Part shown: positions 41,199-42,014 of the stretch, piece after piece
Position numbering within the stretch: position 1 is the first letter of the stretch
Layout: each line of letters begins with the position of its first letter
Assembly: GCA_039030075.1 (NCBI GenBank)
Contig: JBCCEW010000002.1
Location: 62,001 to 126,000 of the forward strand
Source of the DNA: Myxococcota bacterium
GTDB taxonomy: Bacteria > Myxococcota_A > UBA9160 > SMWR01
DNA: 64,000 bases
Direction of reading: 5' to 3'
Notes under the pieces: model-generated
What the model was told of the DNA's origin: nothing
Database searches by the model: none
What the model saw: the letters and a program-made list of their open reading frames with translations, nothing else
Made by a program: the position numbers and the translations under genes

Positions 41199-41684
41199 TC
41201 ACGAAAAAAGATTGTCGATATCGTCGTCCGTGATCTCGGAGAAGGGAGTCGCCCCTTTGGCCGCCTCCTGCTCCGAGCGCTTCTGGATCTCTTCGAAGAC
41301 CTTCGCGAGCTCCGCGCCGGCTTTCTTCACGCGCAGACGCACGAGACCCAGAGAGCTGCGGTCGTCGAAGATCACGACCAGGATGATGCGCTGGGAAACC
41401 AGCGTGATGTGCAGGTTGTCGCGCTGACCCTGGTGGAAGTGGACCGGGAAGTCCTCTTCGCCCACGAGCTTCGCGAGACCGCCGGTCGCCGCGATGCAGC
41501 CCGCCGTGAGCGAGGCCAGGCTGGTGGTGTCGATGCCGCGCATCTCGCCGGCTTCGCCGATCAGCTGGCCGTTGCGATCCACCACGAAGACGCCCTTCGC
41601 GTTGGCGTCGCGCACGAGTTTCTGCACGATCGCCAGAATCCGGCGAAAGTCTTCGTCGTACATCACGAGCTGTGCGTCGTGCAT
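41199..41684 (-). CDS. mglB: MglB-like Roadblock/LC7 protein
   Basis: A 161-residue Roadblock/LC7 domain protein: MYDEDFRRILAIVQKLVRDAN, GVFVVDRNGQLIGEAGE, TSLASLTAGCIAATGGLAKL and HITLVSQRIILVVIFDD follow the fold. A C-terminal extension ends in an acidic tail (EITDDDIDNLFS). MglB dimers stimulate MglA GTP hydrolysis and position it at the cell pole. ATG 41684 was chosen with GAGG nine bases upstream; an earlier start would add 23 Arg-rich residues. It is directly upstream of mglA. The short inverted-repeat element lies about 170 bases upstream. Confidence 0.88.
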   Translation of the reverse strand: MHDAQLVMYDEDFRRILAIVQKLVRDANAKGVFVVDRNGQLIGEAGEMRGIDTTSLASLTAGCIAATGGLAKLVGEEDFPVHFHQGQRDNLHITLVSQRIILVVIFDDRSSLGLVRLRVKKAGAELAKVFEEIQKRSEQEAAKGATPFSEITDDDIDNLFS

Positions 41685-41850: not shown

Positions 41851-42014
41851 TAGAGGGCACCTCATCAACCCCTCGGTCGCCAGGCGCCCGCCTTCGACCC
41901 GATCTCATCGTTGCGAAATCTCGCCGTAGCGACGGCTATGCCTGCGATTTCGTGCCTCGATCTCGGGCCGAATTCGGGCCCCTGACTCGGTCGGGGTTCA
42001 TGAGGTGCCCTCTA
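41851..42014. mobile_element. 164-bp MITE-like element with 22-bp terminal inverted repeats
   Basis: Positions 41851-41872 (beginning TAGAGGGCACC) and 41993-42014 are inverted copies of a 22-base sequence differing at one base. The interior (41885-about 41990) is one copy of a hairpin repeat also found at 60163-60268. The right terminal repeat contains the TAG stop codon of recR (42014-42012). No coding frame, transposase or clear target duplication is visible. The structure fits a miniature inverted-repeat element or a large mRNA hairpin after recR. It sits between recR and mglB, both minus strand. Confidence 0.6.
41885..41990 (+). repeat. Dispersed hairpin repeat, copy A
   Basis: This stretch aligns without gaps to 60163-60268 at roughly three quarters identity (counted by eye). 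Fully conserved blocks include CGCCCG, TTCGAC, CGATCTC, CGTTGCGAAA and CTCGCCGTAGC. It folds into an imperfect hairpin: CGAAATC pairs with GATTTCG, and GTAGC pairs with GCTAT around a small loop. Confidence 0.65.

Follow-up and report, generated by a model that had tools for sequence, protein, structure and literature searches.

A 64,000-nt stretch of a Myxococcota genome (assembly GCA_039030075.1, contig JBCCEW010000002.1, positions 62,001-126,000; hereafter the window) carries recR and, downstream of it, a gene that we take to be mglB-like (roadblock). The gap between them holds a 164-bp palindrome that runs into the recR stop codon, which raises the question of whether it is a mobile element that landed at the end of a gene or a hairpin that belongs to the recR transcript. 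An earlier note, made from the sequence alone, favored a miniature inverted-repeat element. The comparisons described here lead to the same kind of element: the segment at 41851-42014 is very probably a non-autonomous miniature transposon (MITE) with IS5-type ends, inserted at the TA of the recR stop codon.

Structure of the palindrome

Compared directly, the outer 22-bp arms (41851-41872, TAGAGGGCACCTCATCAACCCC; reverse complement of 41993-42014, TAGAGGGCACCTCATGAACCCC) differ by the single mismatch that the earlier note had given. The outermost TA on each side is a target duplicate, and the true inverted repeats begin at the G at 41853 and 42012. Folded as the recR strand, the entire 164 bp forms a single imperfect hairpin with a minimum free energy of -110 kcal/mol (z = -10.2), a stability that none of the shuffled sequences matched. 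The list of open reading frames shows no gene-like frame within 41851-42014, and the segment is thus short (164 bp), non-coding, and bounded by terminal inverted repeats of 20-22 bp with one mismatch, as is usual for MITEs. Copy B, at 60.2 kb, matches the core (88 bits, E = 1.5e-18) and lacks the outer ends, again as first read.

Table 1. Coordinates of the features in the window.
Feature	Position	Strand	Basis
Probable MITE including both TA target duplicates, between recR and the mglB-like gene	41851-42014		Palindrome, homologous full copies, empty site in relatives
Left TA target duplicate	41851-41852		Copy alignment: flanks beyond TA variable
Right TA target duplicate, which is the TA of the recR TAG stop (- strand)	42013-42014		Copy alignment, empty site in relatives
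Left terminal inverted repeat GAGGGCACCTCATCAACCCC, type A ends	41853-41872	+	
Right terminal inverted repeat GAGGGCACCTCATGAACCCC	41993-42012	-	
Core and inner arms	41874-41990	+	Covariance model R1, 136.8 bits
Inner hairpin core, common to elements with unrelated ends	41906-41959	+	
Copy B, core element without outer ends, also at a TAG stop codon	60159-60262	+	Empty sites in genomes G002 and G008
recR, 198 aa	42012-42608	-	Open reading frame; orthologs in relatives end at homologous codon
recR stop TAG, interrupted by the insertion (TA from the host, G from the element)	42012-42014	-	Letters, open reading frame, relatives
mglB-like (roadblock) gene, presumed, downstream of recR	41199-41684	-	Open reading frame; start region alignable in relatives

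The recR stop codon and its empty site

The letters CTA at 42012-42014 are the TAG of recR on the minus strand. Among 20 genomes chosen for comparison of the recR-mglB gap, RecR was found in 19, and in every relative with both genes adjacent and readable the gap is short and free of the element; the comparison was uninformative for G002, where the contig ends too early, and for G073, where recR has another neighbor. The recR gene of the same-genus relative G001 ends in CTC TGA and that of the window in CTT TAG, at the homologous position. Removal of the element and one TA in silico leaves CTT TAG CCC, with the homologous last codon of recR, and so the MITE landed within an existing recR TAG. 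The earlier note had proposed a search of this gap for an empty site and a target duplication, and both were found; the identical structure in all relatives, which it named as evidence against mobility, is not what the gap shows. Relatives also show empty sites for L007 (G010) and copy B (G002, G008). With RecR proteins 65-87% identical, an element missing from relatives may in principle have been lost there instead.

In the proposed course of events, a transposase supplied in trans would have recognized the ~20-bp inverted ends (GARGSCAYCTCAT..., as in IS5-family elements with DUF4096 and DDE domains), and insertion at the TA of the recR stop (target TTAG/CTAA) would have duplicated TA. Each end of the element starts with G, which together with TA makes up TAG on either side; the length of RecR is unchanged by the insertion, the leading G of the element having restored the codon. 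TAG has been regenerated in this way at the stop codons of many genes. The claim that the element supplies the recR stop codon holds for the G of that codon, whereas the TA is the host's, an existing TAG having been split and regenerated.

Copies in the genome and its relatives

The genome of origin, G000 (5.76 Mb, in an assembly 95% complete), contains seven full copies at 84-100% identity, namely the window's own and six at 84-90%, in addition to one copy whose outer ends have diverged (L008) and to copies of the core alone, among them copy B. The copies look old because they are only 84-90% alike to that of the window. When aligned, they have their ends in common, and all similarity stops beyond the flanking TA, as it should in dispersed copies of one element. 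The same element occurs in 28 of 98 genomes, its own included, in a patchy distribution scattered through the order and class; the same-genus relative G001 gave no match at the search threshold used on the 98 genomes. With paired copies genome-wide, TA duplicates, empty sites, and end-matched autonomous elements elsewhere (see below), the initial reading as a miniature inverted-repeat element is well founded.

Target site and stop codons

From the fetched loci, 106 distinct elements were assembled, of which 75 have TA at both ends and 72 have C outside on the left and G outside on the right, the rest being mostly YTAR. The G just inside the left TA is constant in 23 aligned copies. Since the outside bases vary, largely within YTAR, and the internal G is fixed, the duplicated target is TA, within YTAR and usually CTAG, and not CTAG itself.

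CTAG is scarce in the window (20 observed vs 62 expected), and 13 of these 20 sites lie at stop codons of coding-like frames, so no special targeting is needed for the stop-codon preference seen there. Gene calls rested on a simple rule of open frame and GC3, which makes the following stop-codon fractions approximate: of the 100 elements with sufficient flank, 58 end in a coding stop codon on at least one side, compared with 113 of 332 other CTAG sites (p = 2e-5), and 11 do so on both sides, compared with 3 of the 332 other sites in the fetched flanks (p = 1e-5). These 11 elements separate two convergent genes that formerly shared one CTAG. The excess is partly expected, as selection removes insertions inside genes, and the ~58% of copies ending in a stop codon are explained by the scarcity of CTAG and its clustering at stops. 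A CTAG target combined with a leading G that restores TAG provides a simple route to harmless insertion, and for that reason such elements look like suppliers of stop codons. Relative to the abutting gene, 19 elements are in sense and 18 in antisense orientation, without bias.

Type A ends and the probable partner transposase

The end type of the window's element, designated type A (TAGARGCCATCTCATAAACC), is found in inverted pairs spaced 50 to 276 bp, around interiors that are different or deleted, the internal-deletion forms measuring 50-54 bp. It was found in 27 stretches of a species-level genome collection, several in other phyla; MITEs with type A ends and unrelated interiors (L188, L190, L197, L212, L213) come from Acidobacteria, Myxococcales, and Verrucomicrobia. 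Two elements of autonomous size have type A ends and both lie in CTAG, one of 916 bp in Polyangium fumosum (L211) and one of 859 bp in Acidobacteriaceae ZG23-2 (L201). The Polyangium element encodes an IS5-family transposase in two frames (NF033580, 120 and 140 bits; PF13340, DUF4096; PF01609, DDE_Tnp_1), and the IS5-family reading of the acidobacterial element was made by eye only. Through these two elements, the ends of the MITE match those of autonomous IS5-family elements; the left end in the window differs from the autonomous left end at 4 of 20 bases, the homology being established via other copies of the family.

Searches of G000 found no match to an IS5-type (NF033580) transposase, the expected cognate in the same genome, and none to IS630 (NF033545) or IS1182 transposases, because of which the copies in G000 look stranded. 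Of the paired ends and the transposase that the earlier note had proposed to look for, pairs were found in the own genome and the transposase in Polyangium. Judging from these relatives, an IS5-type transposase probably moved this very copy, and its source has presumably been lost from the genome since. Among other candidates, type A end pairs around an open reading frame in G051 were rejected as only nested or solo ends, and no clear type A ends accompany the IS5-type remnants in G006 and G078.

Alternative origins

A conserved hairpin in the 3′-UTR of recR, with a regulatory role as terminator or mRNA stabilizer and no mobility, would account for the very stable fold and for compensatory changes in 13 of 15 core pairs, yet it is highly improbable here. 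Its absence from the orthologous gap in relatives refutes conservation at recR, and the same element occurs at unrelated genes. The element has no U-tract terminator, and no intrinsic terminator was found at it; an Rfam search with the element returned only matches far below gathering scores, none of them credible, and the core is absent from Rfam. The lack of bias between sense and antisense copies speaks against a strand-specific RNA role. An effect on the mRNA after insertion is possible.

Mobilization by an IS630/Tc1-mariner transposase, which would also duplicate TA in CTAG, is unlikely for the element in the window. TA duplication in CTAG is given as the IS630 target in PMC2170065, which cites Tenzen and Ohtsubo 1991, IS630 elements exist in relatives, one of them in a CTAG at the edge of a MITE copy, and elements designated type C, with GTGTCCTG ends like those of the IS630 in G005, contain the same inner core. 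A match of ends to an IS630 element is true only of these type C elements, whereas the type A ends of the window's MITE (GARGSCATCTCAT) match IS5-family elements, the G005 IS630 ends being GTGTCCTGTCCC, and its own genome has no detected NF033545 transposase. The IS630 beside a MITE copy in G005 was considered as an autonomous partner and rejected, being a distinct element that shares the CTAG with the MITE but has different ends. At this locus (L052/L074; G005:C293, 15218-16540), the very CTAG that borders a type A MITE copy is occupied by the ~1.15-kb IS630, showing that two element families use the same target.

The hairpin core as a separate module

The ends are what usually defines a MITE, and its interior may vary; in this family, the interior is conserved and the ends vary. 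A covariance model of the core gives about twenty matches in G000, a figure that in part counts both strands of a single palindrome, and the core is present in 12 of 12 genomes tested and in 19 of 113 sampled over the phylum. The common inner hairpin, a core of ~53 bp (TGCGTTGCGAAAYCTCGCCGTAGC-loop-GCTATGGCTGCGATTTCGCGCCTTG), lies inside TA-bounded elements with differing ends. Type A ends are IS5-like, type B ends (GCAGCCCGTTGAAAAA and variants) bound 1.4-kb elements in G071 and G003 whose transposases are IS1182/IS5_4-like, type C ends are those of an IS630 in G005, and further end types surround the core in distant families of the phylum. In G005, elements of types A, B, and C share 88-94% identity in their cores, with ends agreeing at ~30-45%, near chance for these bases. 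The earlier suggestion that core and terminal repeats are separable modules can therefore be extended to a core found within IS5-, IS1182-like-, IS630-type, and other ends. Inside the autonomous elements described above, the core was not found. In G000, at least five copies (L277, L278, L279, L282, L283) have type B (IS1182-like) ends around a related core. In G051, near-identical elements of type B2 lie at many contig ends (L260-L265), which suggests a recent amplification that broke the assembly.

Among 57 distinct cores, the double changes in 13 of 15 pairs amount to 58 double-change cells, compared with 12 in shuffles and 14-18 with slid pairing. The core has thus kept its structure, which fits selection but fits arm-to-arm correction during replication as well. 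On a tree of the cores, end type changes ten times, a soft number given the weak resolution of 54 columns, and type A elements of G073 sit among type B elements of the same genus.

Two readings of this pattern were weighed. The core may be a transposase-agnostic module, repeatedly repackaged between IS5, IS1182-like, IS630, and other ends and retained for some action of the hairpin itself, which might render insertions harmless, help transposition, or bind a host factor; this reading is tentative, at close to an even chance. If the core is selected, it offers a handle on why some miniature elements persist. A passive history, in which the ends of one ancestral MITE drifted to match whichever transposase was present while template switching between the arms kept the palindrome, is plausible and falls somewhat short of an even chance. 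It fits the loose alignability of type A and B ends (TAGMRGCC...AAACC), the concerted change of the two arms, and the clustering of end type on the core tree, and it is at odds with type C ends that cannot be aligned with type A although the cores agree at 47 of 50 positions in the same genome, with the ten changes of end type on that weakly resolved tree, and with the further end types elsewhere in the phylum.

Relation to known elements

The MITE itself is of a known kind; what is unusual about it is that the core is conserved and the ends around it are exchangeable. No description of this core turned up in the literature searched, which does not prove that none exists. Correia/NEMIS, RUP, and ERIC elements are likewise hairpin MITEs of 100-200 bp at gene edges and duplicate TA, with other ends and in other hosts. 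We know of no report of one core common to several transposase families among them. BOX and REP/BIME repeats are also modular and palindromic, but lack DDE-type ends with a TA duplicate, and size, ends, and TA duplicate point elsewhere than to a REP/REPIN identity (GTAG/CGTC tag, RAYT).

The closest parallels are with IS5-type elements. MITEPsy1 of Pseudomonas syringae is an IS5-type MITE with a preference for CTAG; it is non-coding, ~100 nt long, has IS5-like inverted repeats, and inserts at CTAG or YTAA (PMC3189936). It differs in its end sequence and in a reported 4-nt duplicate, compared with TA here, and the element in the window has the shared hairpin core. In Polyangium, type A ends flank a transposase of the NF033580/DUF4096 type, and in an acidobacterium they flank an element of IS size; the CTAG target of this element family matches that cited for IS5 in PMC10379815; unlike IS5-family insertion sequences, the element in the window has no transposase gene and is a full-length palindrome in place of an open reading frame.

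Other occurrences of the core

Two short core elements lie side by side in G000 with CTAG at the joint (L280; G000:C11:82018-82235). In G149, a core element adjoins an apparent tRNA 3′ end (L338; G149:C304) and, unlike the others, has T runs outside both of its own inverted ends. Phages gave no match. Two weak matches to the core model, left out of the evidence, occur in intergenic plasmid DNA of Cupriavidus (L301, NZ_CP017753.1) and Shewanella ANA-3 (L300, NC_008573.1); the hairpin may have distant relatives there, in other proteobacteria.
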